Below are positions 833 through 11,550 of a stretch of DNA of 21,276 nt, piece after piece (the first letter of the stretch is position 1; each line of letters opens with the position of its first letter). The notes under the pieces are model-generated. The model saw only the letters and a list, made by a program, of their open reading frames with translations, did no database searches and had not been told where the DNA came from. This DNA is from a virus. The stretch covers positions 1 through 21,276 of the IMG/VR virus record IMGVR_UViG_3300042401_001954. The stretch is one strand, 5' to 3'. The position numbers and the translations under genes were made by a program.

Positions 833-2932
833 TTATCCCCACATGTTCTTTTTGTAATTCTTCATTTCTTTCCAATGATTGCCACCAATCATTTCAGCCC
901 AATCAGGCCAGCCAACATCATATGTGCCATTGTAGCCGCCAGCACTAACATTGCTGTTGTTATTGACAACTGTAGATGACGAACCAGATTGTTGACCAAA
1001 TATAGAAGCAAGTATTTCAGATATTGGTTCCTGTTGCGCAATTTCTTGTTGAACTTGGTTTGATACAGCTGCCTGTTTAAGAGTTTGAGTGTTTTCTGTA
1101 GATCTACTCAATTGTTCTAATATTTGTGTACTAGATAACTGTTGTGATTGTGGCTGTTCTGCTTGTTGCTGCGGAGCAATTGCTGCAGCTTCGTCTTGAG
1201 CTGATTGTAATTGGCCCATCATTGCTGATGCTGCAGCCGCAGCCATAGGATTCATTCCTGTCATCATCATTGTCATTTGTTCAGGAGTTAATCCTGCGGC
1301 TGCTCCTGGCATTGCCTGTGTCATTGCAACTGGAGTTGCTGTTGGCATCATCGGAGAACTTGATCCTGGAGTTGTTGCTGATGGTTCAGATCCGGGAGTT
1401 GTTTGACCGCCAATTATAGATTGACCACCTTTGATACCTTTGCCACCTATTTGAGCGTGAATATGGTTATCGTGACCTTTGGTTCTCCAAAGAACAGTAT
1501 ATCCTGCAGCTTGAATTTGTTTTGCCAATTCATCAAATCTCTTGCCCCAAACCGGATCACTGGCTTCAGTTATACTACCAGGAGCATTAATATCAATTGC
1601 CAACCCATCGTTATGAGCAGAACCAGGATGATGCTGTTCCGGATGAACGCCATTAAACGCTGGATGTTCTGAAACTCTTATTCCTTGTGCTTGTAGTGCT
1701 CTACCTAAAGCAACTATGTCGCCTCCAGGCAATGCAGGCATTTTACCAATACCAGCTTCTTTTTCATTGTGATTATGTTCCGCAGCGCCACTTATGGGAC
1801 CATGTCCGTGTTCGCCACCAATTTTCTCAACTCTAGAAACGCCTTCAGAAGAAACTGGTGGTTGTTCAAACTTAGATTGCATTGGCGAAGATTGTGGAGT
1901 TGCTCCACTTTCAGAAGCTCCTTTGGTAGCTCCAGCCCCACCACCACCAACAATCGCTTTTTCTACAGCTGCAACATTCCCTGCTCTTTTTGATGCTTCT
2001 CCAGCTTGATCTCTTGGTTTTTCAAATTTATAAACAAATTGAGCAGCCGCTTCTTGGCCGCTAGAAACTGGAGTTTTTAAATAAGATTTCATTTCGCCTT
2101 CGGTCAGAGCGTAATCAATTTGCCCTTTCCAATTTTTCTGCCAGTCAGGTCCAGCTGCTCTAGTCATGTCAGTGAATCTATGTTCACCAGTTCTTAAATT
2201 ATCATGATGTTGGAACAAACCGCCAGATGGACCATTAACGTCGTTGCGATTATATGCGCCTGAATTAAATTTTGATTCATTTTGTATATTAGCTAACATT
2301 CCTACAGCGTGTTCGTGGTCTATACCTTTTTCTTTAGTCAGGTAGCTATATATGTCCTTTGCCATAACAGGATTGCTTACCTGTTTGACTCCGCCACCAG
2401 CGCCGCCGAGACCTCCACCAGCGCCGCCAGCACCACCTCCAGTCATAAAGTCCATTGCAGTTTTACCCGCACCAAAAGCCAAACCTCCCATAGCCAATGC
2501 ACCAATACCTTTAACTATGGACATAGCTGTTCCGCTAAGACCAGTTAATAATCCTGGTAATAGACTTTGTCCAATTGAAGATTGAAGGTCTTGATTTAGG
2601 CGAAATATACTATTATCAACGTTTGCTATTCCTCTGGCCATATTTTTTATGCCAGTAGCCATATCATGTATGCCAGAATTTATGTCTTGAAGTTCAGATT
2701 GAATTGCTTGTAATGTAGAAGAATTTCTTTCAGATACACTTTCGTTTTCCTGCATAACATTTTGAAGATCATTAAGATCCTGTCGCTGTGCCTTAATAGC
2801 AGCAGCAATAGTTCCCATAATCTTAGATAAATTAGCATTTCCTCTTTCCGCAGCTTCTCTGAATTGTCCAGCGGAATCTCCCATCGCTGAACGAATTGTG
2901 CCTGAGAGTTGCGAAAGTTCTGCTTGTTCCAT
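833..2932 (-). CDS. Tape-measure/hub-like virion protein with lysozyme-like and M15 peptidase-like domains
   Basis: A 699-aa protein. Residues 1-120 look alpha-helical and coiled coil (repeated I/L/M heptads, Gln/Asn-rich), 121-163 form a hydrophobic Gly/Ala segment, and 164-182 a Gly linker. Residues ~190-328 resemble the phage tail lysozyme family (IYSYLTKEKG, then NIQNESKFNSGAYN with candidate catalytic Glu219, then GGLFQHH). A His-rich linker leads to ~400-498, which resembles the LAS/M15 peptidases: SAHNDGLAIDIN (His440, Asp447) and HDNHIHAQ (His490/His492) are the expected zinc ligands. A Gln/Ala/Met-rich region and a Trp-rich C-terminal end follow. The ATG directly abuts the stop of the 59-aa ORF upstream. 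Position after gp26 and the small chaperone-like ORF is where tail phages place the tape measure, so I infer a tape measure (gp29 analogue) carrying wall-cutting domains; a separate hub hydrolase is the alternative. Confidence 0.72.
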   Translation of the reverse strand: MEQAELSQLSGTIRSAMGDSAGQFREAAERGNANLSKIMGTIAAAIKAQRQDLNDLQNVMQENESVSERNSSTLQAIQSELQDINSGIHDMATGIKNMARGIANVDNSIFRLNQDLQSSIGQSLLPGLLTGLSGTAMSIVKGIGALAMGGLAFGAGKTAMDFMTGGGAGGAGGGLGGAGGGVKQVSNPVMAKDIYSYLTKEKGIDHEHAVGMLANIQNESKFNSGAYNRNDVNGPSGGLFQHHDNLRTGEHRFTDMTRAAGPDWQKNWKGQIDYALTEGEMKSYLKTPVSSGQEAAAQFVYKFEKPRDQAGEASKRAGNVAAVEKAIVGGGGAGATKGASESGATPQSSPMQSKFEQPPVSSEGVSRVEKIGGEHGHGPISGAAEHNHNEKEAGIGKMPALPGGDIVALGRALQAQGIRVSEHPAFNGVHPEQHHPGSAHNDGLAIDINAPGSITEASDPVWGKRFDELAKQIQAAGYTVLWRTKGHDNHIHAQIGGKGIKGGQSIIGGQTTPGSEPSATTPGSSSPMMPTATPVAMTQAMPGAAAGLTPEQMTMMMTGMNPMAAAAASAMMGQLQSAQDEAAAIAPQQQAEQPQSQQLSSTQILEQLSRSTENTQTLKQAAVSNQVQQEIAQQEPISEILASIFGQQSGSSSTVVNNNSNVSAGGYNGTYDVGWPDWAEMIGGNHWKEMKNYKKNMWG

Positions 2933-3112
2933 TTATTTGCTCTTATTTTTGAGTTCTTCTACTTCTTTAAGATAATCAACTAACATCTGAACATAGATAT
3001 CTCTTTCAAATGGCATAAGGTGTTCAATATCACTAATTGAATATTTATGGTGCTGGGCCAATGAAAATATCGTTGAGAAATAGTTACCCAACGAATTATG
3101 ACTCAGCGCCAT
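2933..3112 (-). CDS. 59-aa tail-assembly ORF overlapping gene 26, likely its -1 frameshift extension
   Basis: This short ORF starts at an ATG at 3112-3110 and stops with TAA at 2935-2933, directly abutting the next gene. It encodes 59 residues ending in a helical, Lys/Glu-rich segment; MPFERDIYVQM is its most distinctive part and resembles the short 'PFE-x-D' proteins found next to gp26 in T4-like phages (gp51-like in position). It overlaps the end of gene 26 by 10 nt. No Shine-Dalgarno sequence precedes its ATG; instead a T7 run lies immediately upstream, and the ORF is exactly in the -1 frame relative to gene 26. I therefore think it is made mainly as a gp26 extension, like the T part of lambda GT, but independent initiation by coupling is possible. 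Confidence 0.7.
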   Translation of the reverse strand: MALSHNSLGNYFSTIFSLAQHHKYSISDIEHLMPFERDIYVQMLVDYLKEVEELKNKSK

Positions 3113-3816
3113 GTAAAAAAATCGTTTAACGAATTCAAAACGATCTCTCGTTTTGTCCCTGCTGTATTTTCATACTTAATTACATATTCGATCTTAGGAA
3201 TATTAAGTAAAAACTTCTGAATTTCTTCAAAAACCTTAATATTGAGGTTTTCTAGAAAGTCTACTAGATCCTGTTTTTTATAATCGCTTGCTTTATAGAT
3301 CTGATCTTCATAATAAATTGAATCGATACAACGAACTATGAGCTCAAATATGTAATCTTTCTCTAAACTCAAAAATTCTTTGTCGTCATACAGTTTTGCA
3401 GAAGGATATTTCATAACAATACCCGATTTATCGGTGATTTTTATGTTATTAATAATTTTTTCAGGAAAATTTACTTCAATTTTATTGAGATCGATCTCAA
3501 AATCGTATGTTTTATCGTCTTCAGAATCTTTGTATGAAACTTTTACGATATTATCCACTGAAATTGACCTTAATTTGAGAAAAATATACTCAAGATCAAA
3601 GAGCGCCAGCTTATCAATGTCAAATTTAGAATCAATAGAACAATTATTGATGATTTGTTTGATTGCTGAGAGAATATCCGTTGCCTGTTCACTTTCTTTA
3701 GCCATTAATAACAGTTTTTCTTCTTTAACTAAGAAAGGTCTAAACTGAAATTCCTTTTTCAAGGAAGGAACATTTACTCTATAAACTGGATAATCAATTT
3801 TAGGCAATGATGACAT
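3103..3816 (-). CDS. 26: gp26-like baseplate hub / tail-assembly chaperone
   Basis: A 237-aa protein beginning MSSLPKIDYPVYRVNVPSL, followed by a FQFRPFLVKEEKLLLMAKES block at about residues 24-43. This is the pattern of the T4 base plate family that includes gp26 (T4 gp26 is 208 aa). It is charged, soluble-looking and mixed alpha/beta, with no membrane segment. The start is supported by a GGAG Shine-Dalgarno 7 nt upstream (3824-3827 complement). It follows the tube-like gene by 18 nt and its end overlaps the 59-aa ORF. The family acts in central hub formation; given its place ahead of a tape-measure candidate and the slippery site at its end, a tape-measure chaperone role like lambda gpG is my inference. 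Confidence 0.8.
   Translation of the reverse strand: MSSLPKIDYPVYRVNVPSLKKEFQFRPFLVKEEKLLLMAKESEQATDILSAIKQIINNCSIDSKFDIDKLALFDLEYIFLKLRSISVDNIVKVSYKDSEDDKTYDFEIDLNKIEVNFPEKIINNIKITDKSGIVMKYPSAKLYDDKEFLSLEKDYIFELIVRCIDSIYYEDQIYKASDYKKQDLVDFLENLNIKVFEEIQKFLLNIPKIEYVIKYENTAGTKREIVLNSLNDFFTWR
3115..3121 (-). promoter_or_regulatory. Candidate -1 programmed frameshift slippery site (T TTT TTT)
   Basis: On the - strand the gene 26 codons read GAT TTT TTT ACA TGG CGC TGA, giving a T TTT TTT heptamer in the correct zero frame for simultaneous -1 slippage. After slippage the reading continues TAC ATG GCG CTG into the 59-aa ORF, giving a predicted product of 234 + 1 + 59 = 294 residues beside the normal 237-aa gp26. 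A weak 6-bp stem (3070-3075 with 3089-3094) lies about 20 nt downstream, further than is usual for a stimulator. Confidence 0.6.
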
Positions 3817-3834: not shown

Positions 3835-4527
3835 TTAAAATATTGATTGTGATGATCCCACACCAACACCTATAGTTTCTCGTTCTTTTGCTGTTGATAG
3901 TCCACCTGGTTGCGATCTGGTTCTTAAAATTGATGAACCCTCAATTGTATATTCAGTATAAGCTAAAGAAACATTAATTCTCATCAAATTACCATCACCC
4001 CATGAAAGCGGTATTTCTCTTAATGCACTCGGAAACGCTTCAAATAAGTTAATTTTCTGAATTGAGTTTCCATAATGATCGTAAATTACAATTACTATTG
4101 TTGATGAATACTGATCTTTGTATTCAGCTGTATATGTTGGCGCTTGACCTGTAGAAGTTCCACTATACTGGAAAATAGATCTAGTCCATTGATACCAATA
4201 TTGCCAAAATTCGCAAAAATGATCACCAATCATAGAAATATTAGTTTCTTGATATTGGGCGTTTGTTGGTTTCTTTTGAGTTGGACCTATACCGTAATGA
4301 TTGATGTCTGAAGAAATAAGAGAAATACCAGGAGCTCTGACTTGATCAACTCTGAAAGACATATTTTCAGATATTTGTTTTAACGAAACAGGAGTGCCCT
4401 GATTGCCCAAAGCACCACCGTTTTGCGTCATAACTGGTGGTGTTTGAACAAATACCTCAAAAGAATTATTATCTAGGTATCCGAAATCTCTTATATTAGT
4501 TGAAAACTTGTTTATGTTAAAAGCCAT
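3835..4527 (-). CDS. 54: gp54-like baseplate tube initiator (tail-tube fold)
   Basis: A 230-aa protein. Its middle and C-terminal parts show the tail-tube pattern shared by T4 gp19, gp48 and gp54: a beta-rich segment (SFRVDQVRAPGISL then SSDINHYGIG), a polar segment ending in a W-rich helix (FCEFWQYWYQWTRSIF), and a late strand pair around IVIVIYDHYGNSIQKINLFEAFPS leading to ISLAYTEY-like strands. T4 gp54 (320 aa) sits on the gp48 cap and starts gp19 tube polymerisation. Because the gene lies among baseplate genes and not next to a sheath gene, gp54 fits better than the main tube protein gp19, but gp19 cannot be excluded. It is 8 nt after the previous gene in the minus-strand operon. Confidence 0.6.
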   Translation of the reverse strand: MAFNINKFSTNIRDFGYLDNNSFEVFVQTPPVMTQNGGALGNQGTPVSLKQISENMSFRVDQVRAPGISLISSDINHYGIGPTQKKPTNAQYQETNISMIGDHFCEFWQYWYQWTRSIFQYSGTSTGQAPTYTAEYKDQYSSTIVIVIYDHYGNSIQKINLFEAFPSALREIPLSWGDGNLMRINVSLAYTEYTIEGSSILRTRSQPGGLSTAKERETIGVGVGSSQSIF

Positions 4528-7264: not shown

Positions 7265-8527
7265 ATGGCTATTGGTGATATTAAAATTTCTTCATTGAAG
7301 GTTGGACAAATGGATTTGATCCAAGGGGGAAAGGTTTCTCTCGTTGGTTTCAACATTTATGAAGATATTCTAAATCCTTATGGACCATTAGCTGAAATAA
7401 GAGTTCTCGATCCAACAGATCAATTGGGCAAAACAAAATTAAATGGTTCATACGACCAGGATGTTGAGATAAATTTTTCTGGCGACAATTCTATAGCAGG
7501 AATTGGTGGCGGACATAAATTAAAGATGAAAATGTTTCACAACAAAGATTTGAACGATCAATCTTTGAATAACGTTGGTTCTGGACATCACAAACAATAT
7601 GACATTAGATGCGTTTCGCCAGAGTTTTTAAACGCTCAAGGTAACTATGTTGAAAAAAGTTTCAATCAAGAAACTTCTGAAGCAGTAAAACATATAGTTG
7701 AAAAGGGATTCAAATCTAAAAAACAATTCAATGCTGGTAAGACCAAAAAAAGAAGATTGATAATTCCTAAGTCTCATCCTCTAGATGCTTATAAACAAAT
7801 AAGCACTGAGCATGTTTCGGACAAATATGAATCCTCTTGTTTTGTGTTATTTCAGAAATCAGGTCAATCTGGTGGTGAATATGAGTATCACTTTAAAACT
7901 TTCGAAGAACTATTTGAAGGCTCTTCAAAAGTAAAATTAAAACAAACCACTAATTTGAATTTTGAACTCAATAATAGACAAGAAAGACAAAATTCTGTTA
8001 TGTGGTTCAAACCATCAAAGTCTTTTGATAGTGGTCCAAGAGCGTTAGATAAATCTTCAGAATATACTTTTGATTATACTACGCATAAAGTTGTGGCTGT
8101 AAACCAACCAAAAAGCAATAACAAATTTAAATTTGCAGATAGAGATCCAGTTTATAACAGTTCGCCTTCATATGTTGATAAAGGCGTACCAACTCATTAT
8201 GTGCATGATAAGGCAAACAATAAAGAAAAACATGAAACTGCTTCAGCTATGACTAAACGAGCAGCTTTTTTATCTCATCTGGCCCAAAATTCTGCAGAGT
8301 TTGAAACTTATTATAACCCTGATATCAAATTAGGAGAAATGATAGAGCTTGATATTCCCACAAAAGCAAACAGTGATTGGGAAGGTGGCGAAAAACAAAT
8401 GAATGGTAAGTTTTTGGTTGTTGCTATTAGAACAAAATATAGAATAGCAGCTGAACCACCTCATTGCACTATGGTAGTTAGAGTTGTAAAGGCTTCTTAT
8501 AAAGAAGGTGGAGGAGGTCAAGCATGA
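7265..8527 (+). CDS. 27: gp27-like baseplate central hub
   Basis: A 420-aa protein with the pattern of T4 gp27 (391 aa), the trimeric hub torus that binds the gp5 spike and mimics a hexameric tube ring. N-terminal strands around LKVGQMDLIQGGKVSLVGFNIYEDIL and the LAEIRVLDP segment fit the first tube-like domain; CVSPEFLN then EAVKHIVEKGF marks the middle; LGEMIELDIP and FLVVAIRTKY near residues 358-400 are the final beta-domain elements, as in VgrG/gpD proteins. Its position directly before the gp5 OB gene, with a 4-nt ATGA overlap, supports the hub call. The sequence similarity is distant, so the fold rather than identity carries the claim. Confidence 0.78.
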   Translation: MAIGDIKISSLKVGQMDLIQGGKVSLVGFNIYEDILNPYGPLAEIRVLDPTDQLGKTKLNGSYDQDVEINFSGDNSIAGIGGGHKLKMKMFHNKDLNDQSLNNVGSGHHKQYDIRCVSPEFLNAQGNYVEKSFNQETSEAVKHIVEKGFKSKKQFNAGKTKKRRLIIPKSHPLDAYKQISTEHVSDKYESSCFVLFQKSGQSGGEYEYHFKTFEELFEGSSKVKLKQTTNLNFELNNRQERQNSVMWFKPSKSFDSGPRALDKSSEYTFDYTTHKVVAVNQPKSNNKFKFADRDPVYNSSPSYVDKGVPTHYVHDKANNKEKHETASAMTKRAAFLSHLAQNSAEFETYYNPDIKLGEMIELDIPTKANSDWEGGEKQMNGKFLVVAIRTKYRIAAEPPHCTMVVRVVKASYKEGGGGQA

Positions 8528-8937
8528 CATTTCATATAGCAGAAGTCAGAAACTTTGAAGACGATCCTACTAAATCAGGACGTGTGAAAGTTAGAATATA
8601 CAATAAACATAACGACGAACAACAAGTAAAGGATGATGAGTTGCCATGGGCCATGGTGCTTCATCCAGTCACTTCGCCAGCAACGTCGAGAATAGGAATA
8701 TCTCCTTCAGGTCTAGTGGTTGGTTCTAGAGTTTTGATTATATATTCTGAAGAAGATCATGCTAAACAATATCCTATTGTTATAGGATCATTGGCAAGAG
8801 GTGATATGCCAGAAGGACATGAAGATAGTAATGGCGGTGTAGGAACAAATACTGATGATGCTAAGAAAAATTCTGGCGGTAAAATTAAAAAACCAGGCAT
8901 TGATAATCCAGCTTGGACTAAAAAGGATAGTAATTAA
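8524..8937 (+). CDS. 5: gp5 OB-fold domain protein (spike base, no lysozyme)
   Basis: A 137-aa protein equivalent to only the N-terminal OB domain of T4 gp5 (575 aa). The match includes GRVKVRIYNKH near residues 19-29, ELPWAMVLHPVTSPATSRIG (~44-63), then GLVVGSRVLIIYSEED and PIVIGSL. The OB fold connects the gp27 torus to the spike. The lysozyme domain and the beta-helical needle of T4 gp5 are absent here; a needle-like protein is encoded separately at 10431. The C-terminal ~45 residues are a polar Gly/Asn/Lys linker. Starts in a 4-nt overlap with gene 27 and stops in a 1-nt TAATG overlap with the next gene, so the three products are probably translationally coupled. Confidence 0.87.
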   Translation: MTFHIAEVRNFEDDPTKSGRVKVRIYNKHNDEQQVKDDELPWAMVLHPVTSPATSRIGISPSGLVVGSRVLIIYSEEDHAKQYPIVIGSLARGDMPEGHEDSNGGVGTNTDDAKKNSGGKIKKPGIDNPAWTKKDSN

Positions 8938-10430
8938 TGGCGCCTAAACCAGCTTTTGAAAAAAATAAAAAGAGAGTAAGTCCGAACAATCAAACTATTG
9001 GTGGTAAAAAACCAAAAATTGATGCTTCGGTAAAATATGCTGATGCGCCAGCAGTTAAGCCAGACGATTCAAAAGAACTTTCTGATGTCAGAGATAAATT
9101 TGCTCCTAATGCAGACAAACCAACAACTGCTTCTGGTGATAAAGGTATCACAGATTTACCGCAATTAGTAAAACAAATTGATCCTCAAGGTAAAGCACAA
9201 GTCATACCACAAATGTATCAACAATTGATGCAAATGACTAGTATATTGTCTATGGGTAGTGGTTTTGGAGGTGGTGGTGCTGGTGGGCAAACTGGTTTAA
9301 ATCAAATACCAGTATTACCTTCTGGTATTTCTTCAGTATTAGAAGATTCTTTTACTGGTGCTTTGGCTATTTTGGTTAGAAAATATGGATTTGAAAGAGT
9401 AATACAAGTTTTTGTTGAGTTACTCTCAGAAAACAGAATAAATCTAGTTGATATTAGATATAGAAAAATTGTTGAGAATGCTATGGCAAACTTGATAAAA
9501 GTTTGTCTATATTATGGACCAGAAGATATTCCTGTGTCAGTATACGAAACAGTTGTATTTGGAGTTGATGTGCCCGATCCTTTGGTAGATCCAGCTGCTG
9601 TTCCTGATTTTTACCAAAAACAATACTACACTTTAGCAACAGACCCGTATCCTGGATACTATGAATGGAGATCTCCAGCTTCTACGGATAAGGTTTGGAC
9701 AAAAAAGGAAGAAAATTCTTATCACTTTTCTTCATCAAGTCAAGAAATATACTCAAATTCAGAATTGGGATTGGCAGAAGATCTAGATCAATATGTGAAA
9801 TTACAAACACCACAACCTAATTTGGAAATTGGACCGCAACCTATTTTGACAATTGCAATATTTAATGAATTGTTGATAAAAAGATCAAACTTAATAGAGC
9901 AAGATACATTAAACAACAACATGGGAAATAATTCTGGTGGTAACTCCGGCAACAACGGAGGAAATAATATGGCTGGTATGATGGGTGGCCAATTACAGCA
10001 ATTATTGCAAATGTTACAATCTGAACAATTACCAAAATCTGTATTGAACCAAGGCGAGATTAATAAAGCTTTGCAACAGTATACAAAAGATATGTCGTTC
10101 AACAATCAGCTCTTTGAACTAGGAAATATGGCAATGGGCGGTGGTTTGGGCGGAGCTTTAGGATCTCTTGGAAACATGGGAGGCTTATCGAATATCATGG
10201 GAGGGTTTGGAATTGGTGGAGGAGGTATTGGTGGTATCCTAGGAAATCTTGGTGGTGGAAGTCTGTTAGGCAGTTTCGGTGGTTTTGGTGGCGGTTCCAA
10301 TGGCGGTGGCGGTGGGGCTGGTTCAGGATTCCCACAAGCTTCTGGCGGTGGCAGTTATTCCGGAGGAAATATTTCAGAAACAGGATTGACAAATATTGAA
10401 ACAATGTTAAAATTATTGGGAATATCGTAA
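8937..10430 (+). CDS. Gly-rich structural protein of unknown role between the gp5 pieces
   Basis: Not recognised with confidence. The 497-aa product has a Lys/Pro-rich extended N-terminus (1-65), a helical core around residues 75-105 and 130-200 (ISSVLEDSFTGALAILVRKY, then FERVIQVFVELLSENRINLV), and an aromatic segment rich in Tyr/Trp (225-262: DFYQKQYYTL, then YPGYYEWRSP). A second helix region (300-322) leads into Asn/Gly-rich linkers (328-350), a Gln/Leu-rich helix (352-383), then an almost pure Gly/Ser/Asn/Phe tract (400-475). It lies exactly where T4 has the gp5 lysozyme and linker, between OB and needle genes, and abuts both. No lysozyme or peptidase motif is visible. A spike-associated or hub-packing structural role is an inference from location only. 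Confidence 0.6.
   Translation: MAPKPAFEKNKKRVSPNNQTIGGKKPKIDASVKYADAPAVKPDDSKELSDVRDKFAPNADKPTTASGDKGITDLPQLVKQIDPQGKAQVIPQMYQQLMQMTSILSMGSGFGGGGAGGQTGLNQIPVLPSGISSVLEDSFTGALAILVRKYGFERVIQVFVELLSENRINLVDIRYRKIVENAMANLIKVCLYYGPEDIPVSVYETVVFGVDVPDPLVDPAAVPDFYQKQYYTLATDPYPGYYEWRSPASTDKVWTKKEENSYHFSSSSQEIYSNSELGLAEDLDQYVKLQTPQPNLEIGPQPILTIAIFNELLIKRSNLIEQDTLNNNMGNNSGGNSGNNGGNNMAGMMGGQLQQLLQMLQSEQLPKSVLNQGEINKALQQYTKDMSFNNQLFELGNMAMGGGLGGALGSLGNMGGLSNIMGGFGIGGGGIGGILGNLGGGSLLGSFGGFGGGSNGGGGGAGSGFPQASGGGSYSGGNISETGLTNIETMLKLLGIS
10134..10361 (+). repeat. GGN-rich low-complexity tract encoding poly-Gly
   Basis: Within the 3' end of the 497-aa gene, repeated GGT/GGA/GGC triplets encode about 75 residues dominated by Gly with spaced Leu, Ile, Phe, Asn and Ser. 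The tract is degenerate, not an exact tandem repeat. Confidence 0.8.
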
Positions 10431-11255
10431 ATGGCTAATGATAAAGACAATAAAAAATTACCAAAGTCCGGAGTTGATGAGGGCGATATTGTTCCAAAAT
10501 ATGGATACATTCACGGAGAATGGGATGCATTAGGTGGTCATCATTTCAAATATCGTTATCCTGACGAAAACGAAAAATCTTATTCTGAAGAATTATTGCC
10601 TAGTGGAAGCTATCATACCACACAGCACGATTCTGATAAAAAAGAAATACACACAAATCTAAAATCTGGTGAATATAGAGGATATACTGCTGGCGGGCAT
10701 GCTAGTCAAGTTGATGGTCATTACGATCATAATGGTGAAAAAACTGGTAGAATTGAATACGGAAAAGATTTTGGTCAAGCAACTGGTGGAAAATATTACA
10801 GAGGTACACAAAAAGAAGAAATCAAAATGTCTGGAGGCGCACAATATAAGTCGACCCAGAAAGCCTCTGATTCCGTAACTTGTAAAGTAAGCTCTGGAAC
10901 TCTTAGAGATAGATGTAAAAAAGATCGCTTTATGGCAACTGAAGGCGAATATGTTTCTATGGGTGAGAAAAACAAAATCGAAGTATTTCAGAAAGACGTT
11001 TCTTTATATGCAGGTTCTAACCATGATATTCACATAAAACAAAAGGGCAAAATAGAAACTGGTAGTACCATGATGATCCAAACAGGATCTGATGCTACTA
11101 TTAATTCTGCAGCTAAGATTATAGGAAAAGCACAATCTGATATTACTGTCGAATCACAATCAAAAATTACATTAAAAGTTGGTGGTTCCAGTATAGTGAT
11201 AGAAAGCGGTTCGATTACTATTAAATCTTCCCAGATTAAATTTGAACAAGGTTAA
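10431..11255 (+). CDS. gp5C/VgrG-like beta-helical spike needle
   Basis: A 274-aa protein. The C-terminal third (about 165-274) has regular short beta repeats with alternating hydrophobic residues, including GSTMMIQTGSDATINSAAKI and ending IVIESGSITIKSSQIKFEQG. A KLTLKVGGSSIVI-type segment (residues ~245-257) is the hallmark of gp5C and VgrG needles, which wind as a triple-stranded beta-helix that pierces the outer membrane. The N-terminal part is hydrophilic, rich in Gly, Tyr, Lys and His (HTTQHDSDKKEIHT), and probably holds further strands. It is encoded separately from the gp5 OB domain and directly precedes the PAAR-like tip gene, as expected for a spike. It starts at the base after the previous stop. 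Confidence 0.82.
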   Translation: MANDKDNKKLPKSGVDEGDIVPKYGYIHGEWDALGGHHFKYRYPDENEKSYSEELLPSGSYHTTQHDSDKKEIHTNLKSGEYRGYTAGGHASQVDGHYDHNGEKTGRIEYGKDFGQATGGKYYRGTQKEEIKMSGGAQYKSTQKASDSVTCKVSSGTLRDRCKKDRFMATEGEYVSMGEKNKIEVFQKDVSLYAGSNHDIHIKQKGKIETGSTMMIQTGSDATINSAAKIIGKAQSDITVESQSKITLKVGGSSIVIESGSITIKSSQIKFEQG

Positions 11256-11262
11256 ATAGTAA

Positions 11263-11550
11263 ATGAGCCAAGCACATAGACACAGCGATCAAAGATCTTG
11301 TGGAGCTACTACAGTTGTTAGTGGTCAGAATTTTGTTACCATCGAAGGAAAATTATGGGCTGTTGAAAACGATCAAAATACACATGGTGCTGGCGGTTTA
11401 ATAGCTTCTAAATCGTATATTACAATTGCTGGTAAAAAAATAATAGTGGTTAATGATAGTGCTAATCAGGACAATTTATGTCCAACAGCTGGCGGAGAAC
11501 ATTGTAATCCCAAAGCTTCTTCTGGAAGCAGTTTAGTAGAAGTAGGATAA
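11263..11550 (+). CDS. PAAR-like spike tip protein (gp5.4-like)
   Basis: A 95-aa protein, the size of PAAR and T4 gp5.4 tip proteins. It begins with a metal-ligand-like cluster (His5, His7, Cys13), then a VVSGQNFVTIEGKLWAVEND strand set, a THGAGGLIASKSYITIAGKK turn with His41, and a late LCPTAGGEHCNP segment (Cys73, His80, Cys81). PAAR proteins fold into a small cone that binds a metal ion and sharpens the needle. The placement immediately after the needle gene fits. The leader holds TTAAATAG between the stop and start, which may be chance. No similar protein occurs elsewhere in the window. Confidence 0.82.
   Translation: MSQAHRHSDQRSCGATTVVSGQNFVTIEGKLWAVENDQNTHGAGGLIASKSYITIAGKKIIVVNDSANQDNLCPTAGGEHCNPKASSGSSLVEVG

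Follow-up and report, generated by a model that had tools for sequence, protein, structure and literature searches.

A T4-like phage gene very probably yields a short and a long tail assembly chaperone by programmed -1 ribosomal frameshifting

Comparison of sequences makes it very probable that a single T4-like gene encodes both a short and a long tail assembly chaperone through a programmed -1 ribosomal frameshift. The sequence studied, positions 1 to 21,276 of IMG/VR record IMGVR_UViG_3300042401_001954, is referred to here as the window and is the tail module of a T4-like phage, with gp4, gp2, a tail tube-like gene, gp26, a 59-aa open reading frame (ORF), and a 699-aa gene in that order on the - strand, the strand of all features described below. 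The frameshift principle is already published, both for lambda G/GT and for T4-like tail assembly chaperones (Vladimirov et al. 2022), while the anatomy of the stimulators may be new.

The gene gp26 (3103-3816, with its TGA stop codon at 3105-3103) encodes the short, 237-aa tail assembly chaperone (TAC-N) and matches PF12322 (E 1.6e-56) and phrog_150 (E 9e-61). The 59-aa ORF (2933-3112), putatively entered via the -1 frame, is the C-terminal domain of gp51 (TAC-C) according to its match to phrog_634 (E 3.7e-23), a family labeled "baseplate hub assembly catalyst"; it also matches the C-terminal part of phrog_150 (243-277, E 0.005), the N-terminal part of which corresponds to gp26. The preliminary description of this region had spoken of a "gp51-like small product", and the homology to gp51 holds, but the ORF represents the C-terminal domain only and not the whole of gp51. 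The tail tube-like protein (3835-4527; phrog_45, E 5e-23, and PF23849, E 6e-8) is encoded 5' of gp26, and the 699-aa protein in the tape-measure position (833-2932) has a tail lysozyme domain (PF18013, E 1.4e-15) and matches phrog_13339, a tape measure family, over residues 405-500 (E 4e-9). The phiM12 gene at the corresponding position is annotated as tape-measure-like, and the placement of the gp26/59-aa pair between the tail tube-like and tape-measure genes is common to phiM12 and Vibrio phage 6E35.1a. The AlphaFold model of gp26 has a pLDDT of 91 and clear fold matches are found to gp26 and gp51 models from other phages. The gp26 profile found only weak matches to unrelated proteins among PDB sequences; in the PDB fold search (350,542 chains) the HK97 chaperone 2ob9 came 10th and 14th and had the highest probabilities among the matches listed, but its E values were 2.3-2.7, which makes a shared fold with a tail assembly chaperone of solved structure only suggestive. 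Elsewhere in the window (8524-11550), gp5 looks split, with an OB domain standing alone (PF06714, 137 aa), a separate needle-like protein, and a PAAR tip; no lysozyme domain is found among these three proteins, PF18013 being present instead in the tape-measure-position protein (833-2932). A 497-aa protein of the baseplate region (8937-10430) has a glycine-rich C-terminal end and no Pfam match.

The 3' end of gp26 reads AAC GAT TTT TTT ACA TGG CGC TGA, and the slippery heptamer T TTT TTT at 3121-3115 lies in register for tandem -1 slippage, as the preliminary description had proposed. Its further statements, that the 59-aa ORF (3112-2933) overlaps gp26 by 10 nt (3112-3103) and that the stop of this ORF abuts the ATG of the 699-aa ORF (2932-833), are also borne out by direct reading. 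A -1 slip would join gp26 residues 1-234 to a tyrosine and the 59 aa, giving the 294-aa fusion that had been predicted. The suggested likeness to the lambda G/GT frameshift arrangement is supported by comparison as well, but it is not new, having been published for T4-like tail assembly chaperones.

The comparative support for the frameshift is very strong. Relatives were gathered by their gp26 protein with the heptamer ignored (258 loci, giving 178 distinct junctions), and the heptamer NNT TTT TTN stands in register, together with an open -1 frame into a gp51-like domain, at 170 of the 178 junctions, at most about ten codons from the gp26 stop. The spelling is TTTTTTC in 108 and TTTTTTT in 60 of these, with one each ending in A and G. 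The codon preceding the two slip codons ends in T in all 170, while the residue it encodes varies (S, D, N, A, T, G, or H). Phe-Phe is spelled as the heptamer in 168 of 168 cases at the site versus 39 of 532 at other positions of these loci. Because the loci are related to one another, the counts do not represent independent events, but site and control come from one set of loci. By this comparison, the spelling of the heptamer is kept beyond what the protein needs. The junctions lacking a heptamer are five from the T4 clade, those of Vibrio phages D504 and VAP7, and that of SP-15, which is too distant for judgement; Straboviridae such as Cronobacter LPCS28 and Aeromonas 65 retain the frameshift signal.

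In Escherichia coli, ribosomes shift less readily on U_UUU_UUU than on A_AAA_AAG (PMC5009743), so the site would need its stimulators. One candidate is a stem 3' of the heptamer, the 9-bp core of which pairs a 5' arm at 3107-3099, beginning 7 nt past the heptamer and including the gp26 stop codon, with a 3' arm at 3060-3052. In the fold of the window this core is extended by an outer stem (3112-3109 with 3050-3047) that is poorly kept in relatives, and an inner hairpin is seen within it (3070-3094, pairing 3094-3087 with 3077-3070). The window alone folds at -23.4 kcal/mol (z -4.2 versus dinucleotide shuffles). For the 26 sequences of its clade that are less than 85% identical, the 72 nt past the slip site have a mean z of -3.7 +/- 0.5 against synonymous shuffles, whereas six gp26 control windows score between -0.1 and -0.4. 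In an alignment of 28 sequences the core stem ranks first among 1830 possible 9-bp stems, and the core plus the outer part can pair in 86.9% of cells versus 25-48% when slid by 1-3 columns. Cells altered on both sides number nine, versus 2.7 expected from shuffles; counted as pairs altered on both sides there are three, which is not exceptional (77 of 500 shuffles were as high), and the window's own copy of the stem has one A-C mismatch. The consensus found by RNAalifold itself was weak (-0.7 kcal/mol), probably owing to the long and variable interior that the stem encloses, and the named structure was therefore counted directly. Rfam covariance models had no match in 2800-3300 up to E 1. Among 30 relatives with a strong stem, 20 have it beginning 7 nt past the heptamer, and this spacer is present whether the distance from heptamer to stop is 10 or 16 nt, which argues that the stem is anchored to the slip site and not to the stop.

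A second candidate stimulator lies upstream. Shine-Dalgarno (SD)-like elements that stimulate -1 frameshifting act at 9-14 nt (PMC5009743), and in 74 of the 170 relatives an internal GAGG precedes the heptamer by exactly 10 nt (GGAGG in 41). The glutamate codon at that spot is GAG rather than the alternative in a ratio of 74:28, versus 1129:2825 elsewhere. The clade of the window has the stem only, the GAGG element being absent. Folding 3' of the site in the SD-bearing group gives a z of -2.2 versus synonymous versions; a single RNA structure common to the whole of this group was looked for and rejected, since none stood out and the best was 69% paired. On balance, it is likely that the T4-like slip site carries a module of a 3' stem (at 7 nt, with compensatory changes) or a GAGG element (at 10 nt), depending on lineage and sometimes with both, and that the module was lost at the gene duplication of the T4 clade. 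The literature consulted does not describe such a module, although the stem and the SD-like element may already appear in Vladimirov et al. 2022.

If the 59-aa ORF were instead a separate gene, ribosomes would reinitiate on it at the ATG (3112-3110) lying in the overlap with gp26, and the run of T would be a coding accident. The start of a "gp51" is annotated in most of the GenBank records examined, and the Vibrio phages D504 (locus L251) and VAP7 (L255) keep a -1-frame C domain, with a TAATG stop-start overlap and without any heptamer. An intact small ORF lacking the heptamer had been named as the case against frameshifting, and such a case is thus present, but only in these two distant phages, which may either reinitiate or slip on a weaker T-rich sequence similar to the Vandenendeviridae GTTTTT. 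Ahead of the domain core, the -1 frame of the relatives that do have the heptamer lacks an ATG in 105 of 170 and any ATG, GTG, or TTG in 71 of 170, and the ATG of the window is replaced by TTG, GTG, or a non-start codon in near relatives; a separate start for the 59-aa ORF was rejected on this lack of conservation. In 41 of the 170 the -1 frame has a stop at most 3 nt 5' of the heptamer, so that the frame can be entered only by a slip at the heptamer itself. The ORF had also been described as lacking a Shine-Dalgarno sequence; among the 19 starts in the window, its own does pair most weakly with the anti-SD (+0.3 kcal/mol), which speaks against a separate gene, but this is poor evidence alone because two accepted genes are nearly as weak (-0.2). 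Reinitiation also leaves the heptamer spelling, conserved beyond protein need, and the stem or SD-like element at frameshift spacing to be explained, and as the general account of the small ORF it is very unlikely. In 13 GenBank records with frameshift-type or related genes, a join of gp26 and gp51 is annotated in none and a gp51-like ORF is missing from some.

The fusion could also be made by RNA polymerase slipping on the run of T, with an extra U in some mRNAs. The window has seven T, and homopolymer runs can slip, as in Thermus dnaX (PMC5009743); however, 108 of the 170 relatives have six T and then C, a run of any phase would suffice for the polymerase yet the register is fixed, and a stem 7 nt 3' or an internal SD 10 nt 5' are features of ribosomal frameshifting, all of which makes polymerase slippage scarcely credible. 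That gp26 and the gp51 C-terminal domain form one ordinary gene broken by a sequencing or assembly error is refuted in effect, since, error-prone as homopolymers are, the same break is common to 170 distinct junctions, including those of the isolate genomes S-ShM2 and phiM12.

Under programmed ribosomal frameshifting, most ribosomes would terminate at the TGA (3105-3103) and release gp26 as the short form, TAC-N. A minority would pause against the stem starting 7 nt past T TTT TTT, both Phe tRNAs would re-pair one base back, and the ribosome would read past the gp26 stop to give the 294-aa product with the gp51 C-terminal domain (TAC-NC). If the two forms work as lambda gpG and gpGT do, their N part would cover the tape-measure protein and the C domain would bring in subunits of the tail tube. 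The heptamer, the frame, the logic of the fusion, the stem, and the homology to T4 gp51 are drawn from comparison among relatives; that ribosomes slip during infection, how efficiently they do so, and what each part binds are inferred.

In T4 itself the same two domains are arranged differently. The N and C domains of T4 genes 26 and 51 are homologous to those of the window, but T4 gp26 ends in LKEFFELL, spelled GAG TTC TTT GAG and thus without a heptamer, and the gene for gp51 is on the opposite strand from gp26. Residues 1-201 of T4 gp51 match PF12322 (E 4e-52) and residues 147-246 match phrog_634 (E 1.2e-23), so the N+C form is encoded as a whole gene. In an unrooted tree with mixed inner supports, T4-type gp26 and gp51 group together as a clade (UFBoot 99) amid genes of the frameshift type, consistent with one duplication having replaced the frameshift in the T4 clade. 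In the Pseudotevenvirus EC-F2 (locus L260, 3001-4294), a gp51-type fusion gene is followed by a 185-aa gp26-like ORF on the same strand, unlike the opposite-strand pair of T4.

Vladimirov, Gautam, and Davidson (2022, Virology 566:9-15) reportedly found frameshifting to be kept in several T4-like groups. With the T4-like chaperones (gp26 as TAC-N, gp51 as TAC-NC) the window shares the PF12322 N domain and the gp51 C-terminal domain, and it differs from those of Vladimirov et al. 2022 in belonging to a new, mostly uncultured lineage. PMC12846349 presents poly-T sites as known -1 signals in the TAC-N genes of T4-like phages, and such a site in TAC-N, as well as the order of tube, TAC, and tape measure, is also found in the window; PMC10885494 describes some T4-like tail assembly chaperone loci as carrying a short gene and a fusion gene. 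PMC5009743 reviews the gpG/gpGT frameshift of lambda (Xu, Hendrix & Duda 2004), which it describes as widely conserved "except T4"; the window has T TTT TTT instead of the lambda site, and its T4-clade relatives use two genes instead. The TAC locus of Vandenendeviridae/Andersonviridae (phage Adele, PMC12846349) likewise has a -1 frameshift at a T-rich site at the 3' end of TAC-N, but it comes from a different family and has the shorter motif GTTTTT, which the GTT TTT C of VAP7 resembles. The E. coli dnaX signal has an SD-like element about 10 nt before the slip site, as do many of the relatives, and a stem after it; however, it is in a different gene with an A AAA AAG site, and the clade of the window has the stem only.

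In records of marine and freshwater T4-like phages, gp26 and a tiny "gp51" are entered as two separate genes. The small ORF would instead be a domain reached by frameshifting, with the site fixed to one heptamer and with stimulators that can be tested. One phage group would then have two routes to two isoforms, frameshifting or, in the T4 clade, gene duplication, and the presence of both routes within one group would make the cost and benefit of each testable.
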